Below are positions 56,894 through 64,000 of a stretch of DNA of 64,000 bases, piece by piece. The position numbers and the translations under genes were made by a program. The stretch comes from Rhizobiales bacterium NRL2. Its GTDB lineage: Bacteria; Pseudomonadota; Alphaproteobacteria; Minwuiales; Minwuiaceae. A model generated the notes under the pieces. It saw only the letters and a program-made list of their open reading frames with translations, searched no databases and was not told where the DNA came from. Positions within the stretch are counted from its first letter, which is position 1; every line of letters starts with the position of its first letter. The DNA lies in NCBI GenBank assembly GCA_001664005.1, contig CP016093.1:2749001-2813000 (forward strand), given 5' to 3'.

Positions 56894-58270
56894 TCAGTTC
56901 CCGGAGAACAGCAGGTCCGGCAGCCACAGCGCAATGGCCGGAAACAGCACGATCAGGAACAGTCCGAACAGCTCGACCACCGTATAGGGCCCGACCGACC
57001 AGTAGATGTCCTTCATGGTCAGGTGCCGCATGGATGGATCCGCCTGCGTCACCGATCTGAGATAGAACAGGTTGAAGCCGAATGGCGGCGTCATGTAGCT
57101 GATTTCCATCATCACGACGAAGAGGATGCCGAACCACACCGGATCGAATCCGTGCGCGTTCACCAGCGGCAGGAAGACCGGCAGCGTGATCAGCATGATC
57201 CCCACCGGGTCCAGCACCATGCCGAGGAAGAACAGCACGACCATCATGAACAGCAGGGCGCCCCAACGGCCGCCCGGGATCTGCTCGGTCAGATGCGTGA
57301 TGAAACTCTCCGCGCCCATCGCGGTATAGGCCGTGGAATAGGCGTGCGCCGCGAAGACGATCCAGGTGATCAGCGTGGTGAGACGGAAGGTCCGGATGGC
57401 GGCTTCCCTCACCAGCCGGGTATTCAGCTTGCGGTTGACCGCGCTGGCGACCAGAGCGCCGAGCACGCCGACCGCCGCCGCTTCCGTGACCGTCGCGAGA
57501 CCCGAAAAGATTGCCCCGAGCACCATCACGATGATCATGATGGGCAGCAGCACGGACCTGAGGGCGTGGAGTTTCTCGGGCCAGGTCCCGCGGTCCTCGA
57601 CCGGCAGCGAGGGACCCAGCTTCGGCTGGAACCAGCAGCGGATGCCGATATAGGCGGATACGAGCACGAACAGCAGCAACCCGGGGCCGACGCCGGCCGC
57701 GAACAGCTTGCCGATCGAGACTTCCGTGATCAGGGCGTAGAGCACCATCAGGATCGACGGCGGAATCAGGATGCCCCAGCCGCCGCCCGCATTGATCGCG
57801 CCCAGCGCCAGCCGCGCGTCATAGCCGCGCGACAGCATCTGCGGCAGGGCGATGGTCCCCATGGTCACCACGGCGGCGCCTGAGATGCCGGACATCGCCG
57901 CGAAGATGGTGCAGATCAGAACGGTGCCGACGGCCAGGCCGCCGCGCAGACCGCCCCACCAGAGATGCATCATGCGGTAGAGGTCGTGAGCAACGCCCGA
58001 TCGTTCCAGCACCATGGCCATGAAGACGTAGAGCGGGATCGCGATGAGCGATGACGTCTCCATCAGGTCCCAAATCTTCGACGCCACCAGATAGAGGCCG
58101 TCGGAGGACGGGTTCGCCTGAAACTCGGCGAAGATGAAAATGACGCTGAGGCCGCCCAGCACGAAGGTCAGCGGCACGCCCAGCAGGATGAACAGGAACA
58201 GAAGGCCGAAGAAGAGGACGGTCTTCCACTCGATGGCCATGGCCGCATAGGCCACAACGAATTCAGACAT
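56894..58270 (-). CDS. dctM: TRAP transporter large permease (DctM family), second system
   Basis: A 458-residue polytopic membrane protein. It shows FAAMSGISGAAVVTMGTIALPQM, GWGILIPPSILMVLYALITEVSIGKLF, TVTEAAAVGVLGALVAS and ISYMTPPFGFNLFYLRSV, all typical of DctM. The ATG at 58270 overlaps the dctQ stop by 8 nt, so they are translationally coupled. It differs enough from the DctM at 1665-2963 to suggest a different substrate group, in the branch that includes mannitol/chloroaromatic-type TRAP permeases. Confidence 0.93.
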   Translation of the reverse strand: MSEFVVAYAAMAIEWKTVLFFGLLFLFILLGVPLTFVLGGLSVIFIFAEFQANPSSDGLYLVASKIWDLMETSSLIAIPLYVFMAMVLERSGVAHDLYRMMHLWWGGLRGGLAVGTVLICTIFAAMSGISGAAVVTMGTIALPQMLSRGYDARLALGAINAGGGWGILIPPSILMVLYALITEVSIGKLFAAGVGPGLLLFVLVSAYIGIRCWFQPKLGPSLPVEDRGTWPEKLHALRSVLLPIMIIVMVLGAIFSGLATVTEAAAVGVLGALVASAVNRKLNTRLVREAAIRTFRLTTLITWIVFAAHAYSTAYTAMGAESFITHLTEQIPGGRWGALLFMMVVLFFLGMVLDPVGIMLITLPVFLPLVNAHGFDPVWFGILFVVMMEISYMTPPFGFNLFYLRSVTQADPSMRHLTMKDIYWSVGPYTVVELFGLFLIVLFPAIALWLPDLLFSGN

Positions 58271-58853
58271 CGACCTTGCCCTCCGCGCCATCGGCGATCG
58301 GGCCGAAGGCGGTCTCGTCCACGTCGATGCCCATCAGGATGAACACGTCAGCGGCGAATTTCACGATGCCCTGCAGCAACAGCAATGTGGCGGCGACGAC
58401 GATCATCCATTTCGATGGCCAGAGCGGCGCTTTCCAGATGGCGAGTTCATCCACCTCCCATTGGCACCAGGGCGGGACGCCGTCAGCCATGCAGACGGAC
58501 TGCGCGGCCATGCCGTAGGCGTTGGGCAGCAGGACGATCAGAAAAGCGAAGAACAGGAACGAGGTCGCGATATCGACGGCCGCCTTCCGCTTCTTCGAGA
58601 AGCTGCCGTAGAACAGGTCGACATTGACGTGTTCGCGGCGGGCCAGCAGGTAGCCGCCGCCGATGATGGCGTACACGCCGAAAATCAGCCGCGAGGCCTG
58701 CTGCGACCAGGAAATCGGCGCGCCGACCACCTTGCGCATGATGACGTCCGCCAGCAGCAGGACGAACAGGATCAGGACCGCCCAGTTGACCACCCTGGCA
58801 ATCCAGAGATTGGTCGTCGTGATCGTCCGGGCGATCGCCGTGATGGCGCCCAT
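58263..58853 (-). CDS. dctQ: TRAP transporter small permease (DctQ family), second system
   Basis: A 196-residue membrane subunit with four hydrophobic helices (WIARVVNWAVLILFVLLLADVIM; LIFGVYAIIGGGYLLAR; a third centred on TSFLFFAFLIVLL; WMIVVAATLLLLQGIVKF). REHVNVDLFY is the conserved cytoplasmic motif region. A GTG at 58865 is an alternative start. It lies 123 bp downstream of dctP, with an intercistronic hairpin between, and overlaps dctM. Confidence 0.88.
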   Translation of the reverse strand: MGAITAIARTITTTNLWIARVVNWAVLILFVLLLADVIMRKVVGAPISWSQQASRLIFGVYAIIGGGYLLARREHVNVDLFYGSFSKKRKAAVDIATSFLFFAFLIVLLPNAYGMAAQSVCMADGVPPWCQWEVDELAIWKAPLWPSKWMIVVAATLLLLQGIVKFAADVFILMGIDVDETAFGPIADGAEGKVDV

Positions 58854-58948
58854 GTGACTATCCACTCAATTCAGGATCGGAACTTCCGCACGACCGGTCG
58901 CCCGGAATCGGCCCGGAACTCCGGCCGGGGAAGGACGCAGGCGCCGGG

Positions 58949-58970
58949 GCCGGGGGTTCCCTGCCCCGGC
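58949..58970 (-). terminator. Intercistronic stem-loop between dctP and dctQ (possible partial terminator)
   Basis: GCCGGGG (58949-58955) and CCCCGGC (58964-58970) can pair around an 8-nt loop inside the 123-bp dctP-dctQ gap. It lacks a clear T tract, so it may act as an RNA-stability element that keeps binding-protein levels above permease levels. Confidence 0.45.
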
Positions 58971-58988
58971 TCCCGGCAGATGTCGCGG

Positions 58989-60035
58989 TCAGGCGTAGCC
59001 CAGCACCTTGAGGAACTCGACCAGCATCTCGGTGCCCTTCGCGGCGTTGCCGCCCTTGGCCCGCTCCTCTTCCAGGATGGCGCGCGACGCCTCGGCGAAC
59101 TTGTCCAGCACACCCTGGGGGAACTGCTTCACCTTGACGCCGTGCTCGGCGATGCCGGCGGCCAGAGCCGTCATTTCCTTGTACTGATACTCGGCGCAGC
59201 GCTTCCAGAAGCGCGTCTCCAGATGCATCATCAGCGTGAAGCGCAGATCCTCGGGCAGCGCGTCGATCGCCGCCTTGTTCATGATCAGCGTATCCATGGC
59301 GATGCCCATGGTTGGCTTCATGTGGAACTTGGCGACTTCCCACAACGACATGGACTGGGCGCCCTGCGCCGCGCCCCAGTGGGCGCCGTCGACCACGCCG
59401 GAAGCCAGCGACTGGTAGAGCTCGGGTCCGGCGACGTACTGCGGTGCAGCGCCAGCGGCCTCCAGGTACTTCAGATAGGAACCCGAAGAGCGGAGCTTCA
59501 TGGCGGAGAAGTCGCTGGCCTCGGAGATCTCCTTCGAGACCACCAGTTCGGTCGGATAGACCTTCTCGGCGCGGCTGACGACACCGTGATAGGCCAGTTC
59601 CTCGTTGAACATGGCCTCTGCGCCCATGTTCTTCAGATAGTACTGGAACTCCCAGGGCTCGCGGAACGTGCCCGGCACGCCAAGGCAGAGACCGGCCATA
59701 GGCGCCTCGCCCAGAACGTAGCCCGGCGAGAGGGTGCCCATCTCGACCACGCCCTTCTTGACGATCTGGAAGATCTCGGCGCCCTTGGCGAATTCGCCCG
59801 CGCCATGAAGTTCGAGGGTAAAGCGGCCGTTGGTGATCTCCGCCAGTTCGTCGGCGATGACCTGCAGACTGTCGCCATAGGAGGCCGACGCCTTCGGCCA
59901 GTGCGACTGCACCTTCCAGACGACTTTTTCCTGCGCGCGGGCCGAACCCGACCCGATGATGGCAGGCGCCGCGGCCAGCGCCGCGCCTCCCAGAAGCGCC
60001 TTGCGGCGGGACAGTCCGGTCTTCTTCTCGGTCAT
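58989..60035 (-). CDS. dctP: TRAP transporter substrate-binding protein with Tat signal (DctP family)
   Basis: A 348-residue periplasmic receptor. The N-terminus has a twin-arginine signal (LSRRKALLGGAALAAAPAI, cleavage after SARA), so it is exported folded. It continues WKVQSHWPKASASYGDSLQ and has the MKLRSSGS segment with the conserved ligand Arg, plus LASGVVDGAHWGAAQGAQSM. The start follows GAGGGAGGTATCTC. TRAP receptors with Tat signals often belong to the branch that binds 2-oxo acids or aromatic acids as dimers. It is the first gene of dctP-dctQ-dctM. Confidence 0.92.
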   Translation of the reverse strand: MTEKKTGLSRRKALLGGAALAAAPAIIGSGSARAQEKVVWKVQSHWPKASASYGDSLQVIADELAEITNGRFTLELHGAGEFAKGAEIFQIVKKGVVEMGTLSPGYVLGEAPMAGLCLGVPGTFREPWEFQYYLKNMGAEAMFNEELAYHGVVSRAEKVYPTELVVSKEISEASDFSAMKLRSSGSYLKYLEAAGAAPQYVAGPELYQSLASGVVDGAHWGAAQGAQSMSLWEVAKFHMKPTMGIAMDTLIMNKAAIDALPEDLRFTLMMHLETRFWKRCAEYQYKEMTALAAGIAEHGVKVKQFPQGVLDKFAEASRAILEEERAKGGNAAKGTEMLVEFLKVLGYA

Positions 60036-60280
60036 GAGATACCTCCCTCGATATTCCGCGAGAGCCGGCCCGTCCGGCAGCCGCGATGCACAATCATTTC
60101 TGATTCTTCATTCTTCCCAACATGATGACCACGTCCGAAGGGCGGGGCAATCGGTAAAACGCATGAAGGCAGGTACCGATCTCGGCGCGGCGCCGCACTC
60201 GTGTACCGCGCCCTTCCAGACTAGTCTCGACGCTACCGCGCGATTCATTGTCGTTCGCGGTCGGGACGAGGGGGATACAG

Positions 60281-61162
60281 GTGGACATCTTCATTCAGCT
60301 TCTGCCGCTGGCGCTGGCGATCATCATGCTCTCGCTGGGGCTGGGACTCACGGTGGCCGATTTCGCCCGCGTGCTCACCGCGCCACGCGCTTTCGTCATC
60401 GGCCTGATCTCCCAGGTCGTGGCCATCCCGCTCGTCGCCTGGGTGCTGGCGAGTCTTGCCGGCCTGCCGCCGGCGCTGGCCGTGGGCGTCATGATCCTGG
60501 CCCTCTGCCCGGGCGGCGTGACCTCGAACGTGCTGACCCGGTTCGCGCGCGGCGACCTGGCGCTCTCGATCTCGCTGACCGGCCTTGTGAGCCTGCTCTC
60601 GGTGCTGACCGTGCCGGTTCTCGCGGCCTTCTTCGCCGATCATTTCATGGGCCTCGATGCGCCAGCGATCGACGTCACCGCGCTTGGCCTCGCCATGTTC
60701 GCAATGACCGCGGTACCGGTGACGATCGGCATGACCGTGCGGCGCTTCGCGCCCGGCTTCAGCGGCCGCGTCGAAGGCCCGCTCTCGGTGCTGGCGCTGG
60801 TGCTGTTCGTCCTCATTGTCATCGGCGCCATCGTGCTGAACTGGGGCCTGCTGGTGGAAAACCTGCCGAAGCTCGGCCCGTCGCTGGTCGCGCTCAACGT
60901 CATCCTGCTGGCGATCGGCCTGGGCCTCGCACGCCTCGCCGGCCTGTCGCAGCGCCAGGGCACCGCCATCGCCATCGAGACCGGGATCCAGAATTCCACG
61001 CTGGGCATCACCGTGGGCTCGCTGATCGTGGAGCAGGCCTCGGGGCTGCCGCCCTTCAGCCTGCCGTCAGGCGTCTACGGTCTGACCATGTACGCCGTGG
61101 CGCTGCCCTTCATCTTCTGGCGCCGCGCCGGTCAGCGGAAGGCAGCGCCGCTCAGCCCCTGA
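60281..61162 (+). CDS. BASS family transporter (bile acid:sodium symporter-like)
   Basis: A 293-residue membrane protein with nine or ten helices. LTVADFARVLTAPRAFVIGLISQVVAIPLVAW and the ALCPGGVTSNVLTRFARGDLALSISLT motif (PGG-sodium site) define the BASS family, and GIQNSTLGITVG forms the second crossover. A GTG start at 60281 is favoured because GGGGATACAG precedes it; a TTG farther upstream is possible. Its 3' end overlaps that of the converging racemase gene by 11 bp. The substrate, probably an organic anion, is unknown. Confidence 0.87.
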   Translation: MDIFIQLLPLALAIIMLSLGLGLTVADFARVLTAPRAFVIGLISQVVAIPLVAWVLASLAGLPPALAVGVMILALCPGGVTSNVLTRFARGDLALSISLTGLVSLLSVLTVPVLAAFFADHFMGLDAPAIDVTALGLAMFAMTAVPVTIGMTVRRFAPGFSGRVEGPLSVLALVLFVLIVIGAIVLNWGLLVENLPKLGPSLVALNVILLAIGLGLARLAGLSQRQGTAIAIETGIQNSTLGITVGSLIVEQASGLPPFSLPSGVYGLTMYAVALPFIFWRRAGQRKAAPLSP

Positions 61163-61904
61163 GCCCCACCCCGGCGAGACAGCCGAGACTTTCCACCCGG
61201 TCCTCGACGCCGGCCAGCCGGAGCAGGTGCCAGGCCAGCACCTGATTACTGGCGAGTGCCGGCTTGCCCAGCGCTGCTTCCGCCTCGGCCAGGACGTCGA
61301 CGGCGCGGAGATTGGTGCAGGAGGCGAAGACCGCCTCCACCGCGTCCGCGCCGCCGATCGCGGTCATCGCCTCGACGATCGACGGCTTCGCGATGCGCGC
61401 GACCAGCCGTTCCTCCTTCTGGCCGAAGCTGCCGAAGGCGGCGACGCCGACGCCATGATCCTCCAGCGCGACGCGGAGCGAGTCCGAGACATCCTCGACA
61501 TAGGGACTGACCAGCCCGAGACGCCTGACGCCCAGCGCATCGCAGGCGGCCTTCAGCGCCGTCAGCGGATTGGTGACCGGCGTGCCGGGATGCGAGGCGG
61601 CGATCATGCGCGCGACCTCGGCCTCGCCCAGCACGGTCGCGCCGGAGGTGCAGCCATAGGCGACGGCGTCGAGTTCCGCCGCCTGCGGCAGCAGCGCCGC
61701 GGCGTCGGGCAGGGTCTCGCGCATGGTGCGGATGGTCTCGGCGGTGAGATCGGGCGAGCTCGGCACCCGGCTGTGGAACAGCGCCACGTCGCCCGGCAGC
61801 AGGCGGCGGAAGTCGCGCTCGATGGTCTCGTCGATGGAGAGCAGGATCAGTCCCAGCGCGGCGCGTCGCGGCGGCGCGGCCTCGACATCGTAGTCCAGCC
61901 GCAT
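61152..61904 (-). CDS. Asp/Glu racemase superfamily protein (maleate isomerase/arylmalonate decarboxylase-like)
   Basis: A 250-residue cofactor-independent racemase-fold enzyme. The two active-site cysteines are C85 (AYGCTSGATVLG) and C196 (FASCTNLRAVD), with SNQVLAWHLLRLAG near the C-terminus, as in maleate cis-trans isomerase, arylmalonate decarboxylase and EutA of ectoine catabolism. The ATG shares its A with the stop of the upstream M24 gene (TGATG), indicating translational coupling. Confidence 0.85.
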   Translation of the reverse strand: MRLDYDVEAAPPRRAALGLILLSIDETIERDFRRLLPGDVALFHSRVPSSPDLTAETIRTMRETLPDAAALLPQAAELDAVAYGCTSGATVLGEAEVARMIAASHPGTPVTNPLTALKAACDALGVRRLGLVSPYVEDVSDSLRVALEDHGVGVAAFGSFGQKEERLVARIAKPSIVEAMTAIGGADAVEAVFASCTNLRAVDVLAEAEAALGKPALASNQVLAWHLLRLAGVEDRVESLGCLAGVGLRG

Positions 61905-63091
61905 CAGCCGCCCTCCCCGATCACCGGCAGTTCCGCCGGTGCGGGCCGGGTCAGCCAGGCCGGTCCGTTCTCGCCGATGACGATGTTCTCCTCCAGCACC
62001 ATCACCCGGCCCGGACGGAAGGTCATGCCGGGCTCCAGGGTCAGCACCATGCCCGGCCGGATCACGGTCTCGTCGCCCGGCCGGTGGGACGGCCACTCGG
62101 TAAGCTGCATGCCGAGCCCGTGACCCAAGCGCCCGACATCGTTGCCGAGCGCCCCGCCCCGCTCCAACACCGCCTGCATGGCCTGGAAGAGTCCGGCGCA
62201 GGTAACGCCCGGCCGCGCCGCCGCGAAGCCGGCGTCGACGGCGGCCCGGACGGTGGCGTAGGCGCGGCGCGCATCGTCGTCGGCCTGCCCGAAGGCGTAG
62301 TTGCGGTCGAAATCGCAGTAGTAGCCGTCGAAGGTCGCACCGGTGTCCAGCATCAGCACGTCGCCCGGCTCTGTTCGCCGCTCGCTCGGCGGGGAGATGA
62401 TGTCGCCGACCCCGCCCGGGGCCGCGCCGCCCACCAGATAAGGCACGTCGTCGGCGCCGCGCTGCAGGCATTCGATCCGGAACGCGCGGAAGATCTCCGC
62501 CTCGCTCATGCCCGTGGTCACGAAACCGGGCAACGCCTCGAAGACGTCGGAGACGAGAGCGCAGATATGGGCGATCTTCCCGATCTCGGCCGGCGACTTG
62601 ACCATGCGCAGTTCGCGCACGACCGCCCCTGCGTCCACGAAGGCGCAATCCTCCAGTCCGGCCACGAGACGGGTGTGATCGGCGAGCGGCATTCGGAGAT
62701 GCGTCTCCGGACCCATCGGTACGCCGATCCGCGCCCTCGGCCCGGCCAGTTCCCGCACCGCCTCGGCCAGCAGGGTCACGCCCTCGTCCTCGGGCCGGGG
62801 CGAGGGCCAGCTGCGGACGTCGTCCAGCCAGGTCCGGGCCAGGCATTCCGCGCCGATAGAGGGGACCACGGCGACGGGCTTGCCCGCGGCCGGCACCAGC
62901 AGGAACCAGGGCCGTGTCGGACTCTGCCAGAACTGGGTGAGAAAGCCGGAAAAATAGCGGAACTCGGGCTCGGTCGTGAACAGCAGGATGTCGATGCCCG
63001 CTGCCGCCATCAGCGCCTGAGCGCGGGCGGTCCGCGCCGCCAGCTCGTCGGGCGCAAAGCCGCGCTCGGGTTCCTGCCGGCGCTCAGCCAT
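61904..63091 (-). CDS. M24 family metallopeptidase-like protein (Xaa-Pro peptidase/ectoine-hydrolase-like)
   Basis: A 395-residue protein with an N-terminal creatinase-like domain (RAQALMAAAGIDILLFTTEPEFRYFSGF) and the C-terminal pita-bread fold. All five metal ligands of the M24 family are present: D (MLDTGAT), D (YYCDFDRN), H (LGHGLGMQL), E (LTLEPGM) and E (VLEENIV). Such proteins include aminopeptidase P and the ectoine hydrolase DoeA/EutD, which has the same size. It overlaps the upstream lyase gene and the downstream racemase gene, so this is a tight operon. Confidence 0.88.
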   Translation of the reverse strand: MAERRQEPERGFAPDELAARTARAQALMAAAGIDILLFTTEPEFRYFSGFLTQFWQSPTRPWFLLVPAAGKPVAVVPSIGAECLARTWLDDVRSWPSPRPEDEGVTLLAEAVRELAGPRARIGVPMGPETHLRMPLADHTRLVAGLEDCAFVDAGAVVRELRMVKSPAEIGKIAHICALVSDVFEALPGFVTTGMSEAEIFRAFRIECLQRGADDVPYLVGGAAPGGVGDIISPPSERRTEPGDVLMLDTGATFDGYYCDFDRNYAFGQADDDARRAYATVRAAVDAGFAAARPGVTCAGLFQAMQAVLERGGALGNDVGRLGHGLGMQLTEWPSHRPGDETVIRPGMVLTLEPGMTFRPGRVMVLEENIVIGENGPAWLTRPAPAELPVIGEGG

Positions 63092-64000
63092 CGATCAGGT
63101 CGTCCAGGCGCGCGCCGGGGCCATCGCCTTCGACAATCCGCCGGTAGATCGCCGGATCGGTCGCGCCTTCGCAGCCGAAGACCAGCACGCGGGAGCTTTC
63201 GTCGAGCCCGATCGCAGCCTTGAGGTCCGGGTCCGCCGCCGCGCCGATAAGTCCGATCAGACCGGGGACCGCCGACTCGCCCGCGGTGATCGGCCCGCCG
63301 CCCGCCGCGCCGGCGGCCAGCAGGCGCATGGCGGGCGCCACCATCTCCTCGCCGATGGTGATGTAGTCGGCCGCGCCGCGCGAGAGCACCTCCCAGGCCA
63401 GCAGGGAAACCTCGCCGCAGGAGAGGCCGGCCATCACCGTTTCCTCCTCCAGCACGACGGACGTCGGCCTGCCCGCCCGGGCCGTCGCCATGAGGCAGGC
63501 CGCCCGGGTCGGCTCCACGATGACGAAGCGCGGCCGCGCGGGACCGAGACGCTGCCACATGGCCGCACAGACCGCCGCCGCCAGTCCGCCGACCCCGGCC
63601 TGGACGAAGACGTGGGTTGGCGGCTGGGGCAACTGCGCCATCGCCTCCCCCGCCATCACGCCATAGCCGGCCATCACCAGCCGTGGCACCTCCATGTAGC
63701 CGTCCCATGAGGTATCGGAGACAACCTGCCAGCCATTGGCCTCGGCCTCCTCGGCGCAGAGGCGGACGGACTCGTCATAGTCGCCCTCGATGCGGACGAC
63801 CTCCGCGCCGAAGGCCTCCATGGCCTGCTGGCGGCCCTTGCTGACGCCGGCATGGATGTAGATGCGGCAGCGGCAGCCGGCCATTTCGGCACCCCAGGCG
63901 ACCGAGCGGCCGTGATTGCCGTCGGTCGCCGTGACCACGGTCAGGCCTTGCAGGTCATCGCGATGCCCGCCCTCCCTGATCGCGGCCGGGTCCGGCCGCC
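63084..64000 (-). CDS. PLP-dependent diaminopropionate ammonia-lyase-like protein, 5' end outside the window
   Basis: About 305 C-terminal residues of a fold-type II PLP enzyme; the N-terminus with the Schiff-base lysine lies beyond 64000. VTATDGNHGRSVAWGA (phosphate/Asn segment), IYIHAGVSKGR, NGWQVVSDTSWDGY, THVFVQAGVGGLAAAV (Gly-rich PLP phosphate loop), MAGLSCGEVSLLAWEVL and AGESAVPGLIGL closely follow diaminopropionate ammonia-lyase (DpaL/YgeX), more than threonine dehydratase. It overlaps the M24 gene by 8 nt. With that gene and the racemase it forms an apparent catabolic operon. Confidence 0.83.
   Translation of the reverse strand, partial: RPDPAAIREGGHRDDLQGLTVVTATDGNHGRSVAWGAEMAGCRCRIYIHAGVSKGRQQAMEAFGAEVVRIEGDYDESVRLCAEEAEANGWQVVSDTSWDGYMEVPRLVMAGYGVMAGEAMAQLPQPPTHVFVQAGVGGLAAAVCAAMWQRLGPARPRFVIVEPTRAACLMATARAGRPTSVVLEEETVMAGLSCGEVSLLAWEVLSRGAADYITIGEEMVAPAMRLLAAGAAGGGPITAGESAVPGLIGLIGAAADPDLKAAIGLDESSRVLVFGCEGATDPAIYRRIVEGDGPGARLDDLIDG

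Follow-up and report, generated by a model that had tools for sequence, protein, structure and literature searches.

What do three overlapping genes for an Asp/Glu-racemase-like protein, an M24-family hydrolase, and a diaminopropionate ammonia-lyase-like enzyme do in Rhizobiales bacterium NRL2, and do they take part in the breakdown of ectoine, a molecule that protects cells against salt? The genes lie at one end of a 64,000-nucleotide stretch of DNA (the window), which covers positions 2749001-2813000 of the host's single-contig, 4.70-Mb genome (contig C1, genome G000). We propose that these genes form the core of an accessory branch that breaks down ectoine, 5-hydroxyectoine, or a very similar cyclic-amidine solute, a reading to which we give a probability of about 0.6. 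The trio is probably an extra ectoine-type branch, not a chance set of genes or a variant of the known ring-opening enzyme. Its placement in the pathway, which we favor to the same degree, rests on gene context, namely, linkage to EutD and EutE, importers, M20 proteins, and Lrp/AsnC regulators.

A conserved dpaL-M24-eutA unit

The three genes share the minus strand, in the order dpaL-like, M24, and eutA-like, as judged from open reading frame (ORF) calls and translations. The dpaL-like gene (63084-64307, 407 aa) codes for a fold-type II pyridoxal phosphate (PLP) lyase; the final 307 nt of this interval are outside the window, and the stretch inside it, 63084..64000, is the C-terminal part. It overlaps by 8 nt with the M24 gene (61904..63091, 395 aa), which codes for a hydrolase with creatinase-N and peptidase_M24 domains, of a subfamily that we call trio-type. 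This gene in turn overlaps by 1 nt with the eutA-like gene (61152..61904, 250 aa), which family searches place in the Asp/Glu-racemase superfamily (Pfam Amdase). The original prediction, made from the letters of the window, had the overlaps of 1 to 8 nt and the start at 61152 right; the end that it gave, 64000, is only the window edge.

The order dpaL>M24>eutA is a conserved unit, beyond what chance would give. Among six other genomes of the genus, one (G007) carries it at the corresponding site, with proteins that are 93-97% identical, and four (G003-G006) have it in another neighborhood, with identities of about 39%, 56%, and 46% for the three proteins, respectively. In the sixth (G008), only M24 and eutA were seen, and the contig ends inside M24. 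A wider scan, with one genome per species, collected 545 relatives of the M24 protein, and neighborhoods were counted in the best 80 of these; in 20 of the 80 loci, less than 3 kb of sequence flanks M24 on one side, so that some absences may reflect cut contigs. An EutA-like protein is encoded in 58 of these loci, a DpaL of either clade in 32, an M20 protein in 19, and an AsnC regulator in 18. A DpaL gene on the same strand as M24 is upstream of it in 27/27 cases, and a same-strand EutA gene is downstream in 48/56. Mantel distance correlations over 36 loci were 0.87 (r) for M24/EutA and 0.73 for M24/DpaL, and in larger sets they were 0.81 for M24/EutA-like (74 loci) and 0.65 for M24/DpaL (55 loci), although values of this size can be reached by common descent alone.

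Other partners recur in the same 80 loci. A class V PLP enzyme is present in 17, never alongside DpaL. It is found mostly in Acidimicrobiales and other Actinomycetota, and DpaL mostly in Proteobacteria; in Acidimicrobiales, the class V enzyme may stand in for DpaL. An EctD-like PhyH dioxygenase scores above 300 bits in 22 loci, and the one member scored against the EctD cut-off reached 56 bits versus 336.5.

Side observations concern the arrangement of these partners. Loci from Acidimicrobiales (L065, L107, and others) show a recurring M24-PhyH-eutA order together with a class V PLP enzyme that resembles EgtE or a cysteine desulfurase and is usually divergent. Also, four loci from other genomes of the host's genus (L026, L027, L028, and L030) hold a second, divergent M24 and EutA-like pair, at 25-26% and 32-34% identity, which is accompanied by a nitrilase-like protein and by large proteins resembling HyuA/HyuB by eye.

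Linkage to ectoine catabolism

Co-occurrence with EutD was measured in 337 genomes of the class, sampled with a requested completeness of at least 90%. A trio-type M24 protein (E 1e-90, the lower-scoring ones being unchecked individually) was found in 49 genomes, EutD (E 1e-120) in 46, and both in 35. EutD is thus present in 35/49 carriers of trio-type M24 versus 11/288 noncarriers (odds ratio, 63; Fisher p, 1e-26). Excluding the host's own genus gave 31/45 carriers versus 11/288 others, counting only EutD proteins over the curated cut-off gave 19/49 versus 4/288 (odds ratio, 45), and collapsing the genomes to families, of which 150 were assumed in all, gave an odds ratio of 39. The control gene, creatininase, had an odds ratio of 3.5, and therefore some general association exists. 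Among 30 genomes chosen from those behind the loci, EutD exceeded 500 bits in 23 and its cut-off in 13.

Gene order points in the same direction in a few genomes. Two loci under one genus label (L163 and L164) read dpaL-M24-eutA-eutD-eutE on one strand, with one ORF between eutD and eutE in L164; their EutD (756 and 746 bits) and EutE (559 and 558 bits) proteins are all over the cut-offs. No other of the 20 stretches examined has eutD-eutE adjoining the trio, and the 20-kb stretches of L163 and L164 contain no match to EutB or EutC. At another locus (L167), dpaL-M24-eutA is preceded on its own strand by genes for EutC-EutD-EutE-AsnC, an aldehyde dehydrogenase, and an aminotransferase, and plus-strand ORFs separate the two groups. 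At L071, trio-type M24 adjoins EutC (439 bits versus 472) and an EutB over its cut-off is on the other side; an EutD-like M24 protein, an aldehyde dehydrogenase, and ATP-binding cassette permeases are encoded there too.

Ectoine-type importers, M20 deacylases, and Lrp/AsnC regulators also appear near relatives of the trio. For instance, an EhuB over the cut-off (310/190.9) is encoded upstream of M24 in Bosea, ehuC/ehuD are named near M24 in a Roseovarius locus, and EhuB-like proteins below the cut-off are near M24 in L106 and L037. The binding protein of a tripartite ATP-independent periplasmic (TRAP) transporter in L110 has UehA (3fxb) as its best PDB match (E 9e-63), with relatives that are 74% identical in L126 and 68% identical in L070. 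A betaine/carnitine/choline transporter (BCCT) gene lies near M24 in L128, and Lrp/AsnC regulators are near the trio in some relatives. The M20 neighbor in L075 scores best with DoeB2, below the cut-off (329/550). The link to ectoine breakdown drawn in the original prediction is upheld by the co-occurrence with EutD, by the trio standing before eutD-eutE in two genomes, and by these transport proteins.

The trio nevertheless differs from the canonical ehu/ueh-eutABCDE-asnC-ssd-atf cluster. An M24 protein, an EutA-type racemase, a fold-type II PLP enzyme, a deacylase, Lrp/AsnC regulators, and Ehu/Ueh-type importers occur in both, and L163 and L164 join the trio directly to eutD-eutE. However, the trio M24 is of the metal type and not EutD, the PLP enzyme is of the DpaL type and not EutB, and the deacylase is M20 in several loci. 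Moreover, 35 carriers have the trio-type M24 in addition to EutD, and 18 of these have EutC as well.

The three proteins

The original prediction likened the M24 protein to DoeA/EutD, the ectoine hydrolase, and we reject such an identity. The protein scores 59.7 bits with the DoeA/EutD model TIGR02993, which has a cut-off of 613; the nearest NCBIfam model is PepQ, at 101 bits versus a cut-off of 630. Its best PDB matches are PepE and prolidases (3e-35), with DoeA far weaker (2e-13). Residues were counted in those proteins from the collected loci that reached 250 bits against the window protein (n = 111). The five metal ligands are conserved in 111/111: Asp249 (codon at 62345..62347, minus strand, as are all codons given here), Asp260 (62312..62314), His324 (62120..62122), Glu353 (62033..62035), and Glu367 (61991..61993). 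At these sites, the residues in eight EutD-type references, of which four exceed the curated cut-off, are Glu, Pro, Tyr, Met/Ile, and Thr/Ser, with 0/5 identical in each. Thus, EutD/DoeA and the trio M24 share the pita-bread superfamily and the creatinase N-domain, but only the latter keeps the five ligands. The host also encodes a separate EutD-like protein (586/613) beside EutB and EutC.

A comparison with peptidases gives a mixed result. The pentad Asp, Asp, His, Glu, Glu is that of Xaa-Pro dipeptidase and aminopeptidase P, in which two further histidines have a substrate or catalytic role. In the trio M24, the site of the second of these is Thr331 (62099..62101), which turns HExP into TExP, is Thr in 111/111, and aligns to the His of PepE and prolidase; the other is Ile232/Ser233, with Ile232 in 108/111. 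The original prediction named M24 residues matching ordinary aminopeptidase P as a result that would refute it, and such a match holds by half: the metal residues are present and the substrate histidines are not. With an intact metal pentad and replaced peptidase histidines, the trio-type M24 protein probably uses metal, as we predict, but is neither EutD nor a normal peptidase. DddP, an M24-family lyase of dimethylsulfoniopropionate, is a precedent for a metal-dependent, nonpeptidase M24 enzyme.

The eutA-like product is nearest to EutA (TIGR02990) but below the cut-off, at 181.9 bits versus 318, and four relatives encoded beside trio genes score 168-186 bits. Its solved relatives in the PDB are arylmalonate decarboxylase and maleate isomerase. 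Two conserved cysteines mark racemases and epimerases in this superfamily, and one marks decarboxylases. Cys85 (61650..61652) and Cys196 (61317..61319), which we take to be the catalytic pair, are both Cys in 77/77 EutA-like proteins, fitting a racemase or epimerase rather than a one-cysteine decarboxylase.

Of the three family calls in the original prediction, the one for the PLP enzyme holds best: it passes the diaminopropionate ammonia-lyase model NF006058 with 488.5 bits (cut-off, 276), and its best PDB matches are the diaminopropionate ammonia-lyases 5ygr and 4d9g. The EutA and DoeA calls do not reach their models. Like YgeX/DpaL, the protein keeps the PLP-binding Lys81 and Asp198, in 57/57 relatives; unlike it, the protein falls below the TIGR03528 cut-off (317/532). 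Asp129, in the TATDGNHG motif (63921..63923), presumably corresponds to Asp120 of the Escherichia coli lyase. As a side observation, residue 129 is split among the relatives, with Asp in 34/57 and Ala in 23/57, and so DpaL comes in two kinds at the same place in the loci; they may mark different stereochemistry or a different substrate.

Setting of the trio in the host genome

Neither eutD nor a deacetylase gene adjoins the host trio, which is flanked by a transporter gene and a molybdenum hydroxylase pair. The transporter, of the bile acid:sodium symporter (BASS/SBF) family by domain search, is encoded at 60248-61162 on the plus strand, and its gene and the convergent eutA-like gene overlap by 11 nt; it is also present in G007 (L019) and was found in 0/80 related loci. 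On the other side, 88 nt upstream of dpaL, lie genes for a 2Fe-2S protein and a molybdenum hydroxylase (64396-67049 in window numbering, minus strand; L003 9396-12049). The pair is kept in G007 (L019), but it was rejected as a member of the module, its own type of large subunit being found in 0/80 loci. Farther out, domain searches identified the TRAP transporter genes DctM, DctQ, and DctP (56894-60035, minus strand), for perhaps a polyol or keto acid importer; the best PDB match of the binding protein is SmoM (2hzk).

The host's recognizable ectoine genes are elsewhere, at about 3.245-3.251 Mb of C1 (L119 6061-11869), where eutB-eutC and aminotransferase-like genes, one of which resembles class III aminotransferases, are divergent from eutD and an argE-type deacetylase gene, without eutA or eutE. 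EutB is over its cut-off, EutC is just below (461/471.65), and EutD scores as given above. Because the trio EutA-like protein is the sole match of its kind in the host at E 1e-10, it may also serve this cluster.

Weighing the readings

Several observations weigh against an ectoine-type branch. The window DpaL retains the diaminopropionate lyase residues Lys81, Asp129, and Asp198. In the host genome, no EutE was found by TIGR02994, and the protein beside EutD is of the ArgE type; the best EhuB score, 83 bits, is below the cut-off, and the search for UehA gave no close match (best, 23% identity). The TRAP system near the trio was rejected as the importer of the module, its binding protein being SmoM-like and not UehA and the BASS gene intervening. 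EhuB- or UehA-type proteins are encoded in only 4/80 loci, and 4 more hold another TRAP binding protein. The M20 neighbors tested (L075 and L037) pass only a generic amidohydrolase model, and that of L037, which scores 334 with DoeB2, ranks two other models higher. At the threshold used, 14/49 carriers lack EutD, and the co-occurrence and Mantel statistics ignore phylogeny beyond the family-level collapse. The idea that the trio is a general replacement for EutB-EutC, suggested by L163 and L164, was rejected on the EutC counts, 18/35 for trio-plus-EutD genomes versus 3/11 for EutD-only genomes. Also, EutA-like proteins of similar score exist outside ectoine loci, for example, on Sinorhizobium pSymA beside an annotated L-2-aminothiazoline-4-carboxylate (L-ATC) hydrolase. 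Finally, a sarcosine oxidase-like oxidoreductase of the FAD/GcvT type lies near trio genes in three loci (L106 1209-3656, L123 2415-4865, and L180 5745-8189) and is unexplained.

The original prediction pointed to a diamino acid or derivative, which is a possible substrate class, and one alternative develops this idea. The trio might degrade a compound derived from 2,3-diaminopropionate (N-acyl, cyclic amidine, or ureido) through racemization, hydrolysis to diaminopropionate by M24 or M20, and conversion to pyruvate and ammonia by DpaL, the tie to ectoine reflecting shared diets of nitrogen-rich solutes and related transporters. The NF006058 score, the three retained residues, and the molybdenum hydroxylase pair directly upstream in the host agree with this, as does an excerpted account in which DpaL (YgeX) ends a reductive urate route via 2,3-diaminopropionate (PMC12507026). 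We regard it as unlikely, if worth keeping in view, since Ala replaces Asp129 in 23/57 relatives; DpaL was not found in 48/80 M24 loci, 17 of them with the class V PLP enzyme, although some contigs may be cut; the adjacency to eutD-eutE is left unexplained; and the large molybdenum subunit of the host's type was found in 0/80 loci. None of the urate partners YgfK, SsnA, HyuA, and YgeW stood out when the host genes were inspected by eye, and none is named in ten plasmid loci, no model search having been made for them. A different cyclic amidine or isothiourea amino acid, racemized by the EutA-like enzyme and hydrolyzed by M24 as in the ATC pathway, draws on the pSymA locus (L183). There, the EutA-like racemase is 41% identical, and an M20 hydrolase of the hydantoinase/carbamoylase family and a 2Fe-2S/xanthine dehydrogenase pair recall the host's upstream genes. 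However, an ATC hydrolase is annotated beside trio genes in none of the ten plasmid loci opened, and the EutD link goes unexplained, which makes this substrate quite improbable.

The two remaining alternatives concern the proteins more than the substrate. If M24 were an ordinary Xaa-Pro dipeptidase or aminopeptidase, then the genes would be a generic set for amino acid or peptide salvage; this fits its best NCBIfam and PDB matches, the intact pentad, and plasmid records that label its relatives Xaa-Pro peptidase family protein. The replacement of both substrate histidines, the low PepQ score, and the close association with racemase and PLP lyase genes render it highly improbable. That the trio is a diverged DoeA/EutD, EutA, and EutB core of the canonical cluster is barely credible: the superfamilies are the same, but all three proteins fall below the Eut cut-offs (60/613, 182/318, and 67/413), the M24 metal site is intact where the eight EutD-type references have other residues, and the host has a separate EutD-like protein, findings that together refute membership.

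A possible route and what it means

For the accessory ectoine branch, a putative series of steps can be sketched. The EutA-like enzyme would invert a stereocenter, either in the intact solute or once it has been opened, and M24 would hydrolyze a C-N bond, either opening the ring or cutting a side amide. The acyl group could then be taken off by a deacylase, M20 or EutE. The DpaL-type or class V enzyme might eliminate the beta substituent, which would be the OH of 3-hydroxy-diaminobutyrate or the NH2 of diaminopropionate, yielding a 2-oxo acid and ammonia with no need for an aminotransferase. Our tentative choice of preferred substrate, and of the step assignment that goes with it, is 5-hydroxyectoine, which would explain why an epimerase and a PLP enzyme that catalyzes elimination are needed, as well as the presence of the EctD-like dioxygenase in Acidimicrobiales. 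More speculative, and somewhat doubtful in its full form, is a second, aminotransferase-free 5-hydroxyectoine route in which metal-type M24, distinct from EutD, opens the ring, the EutA-type epimerase inverts the hydroxyl stereocenter, and the DpaL-type lyase forms 4-amino-2-oxobutyrate and ammonia by beta-elimination, with the Acidimicrobiales dioxygenase first hydroxylating ectoine.

Published work bears on this route in part. An excerpted study of R. pomeroyi indicates that EutABC is required for hydroxyectoine use and that hydroxyectoine-grown cells contain diaminobutyrate (PMC8739950), which implies a route back to diaminobutyrate there, unlike the elimination proposed here. In its accessible portion, another report describes putative ectoine clusters of Bacillota with second eutD homologues, amidohydrolases (abgB), and BCCT/Ehu/Ueh transporters (PMC13188858), and a table in a partly available source lists pepQ with osmoprotectant transport genes (PMC9720073). 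The open-licence literature searched, mostly by listings, gave no account of a dpaL-M24-eutA module.

What exactly EutA, EutB, and EutC do when hydroxyectoine is used is described as unknown in the same excerpt on R. pomeroyi (PMC8739950). The widespread module, joined to eutD-eutE in some genomes, offers a second enzyme set with which the EutABC question can be tested: an EutA-like protein, a PLP lyase of another kind, and an M24 protein of the metal type. Our analysis further suggests that a solute-degrading enzyme has been going under the name Xaa-Pro peptidase, and its type is present in 49/337 genomes sampled from the class.

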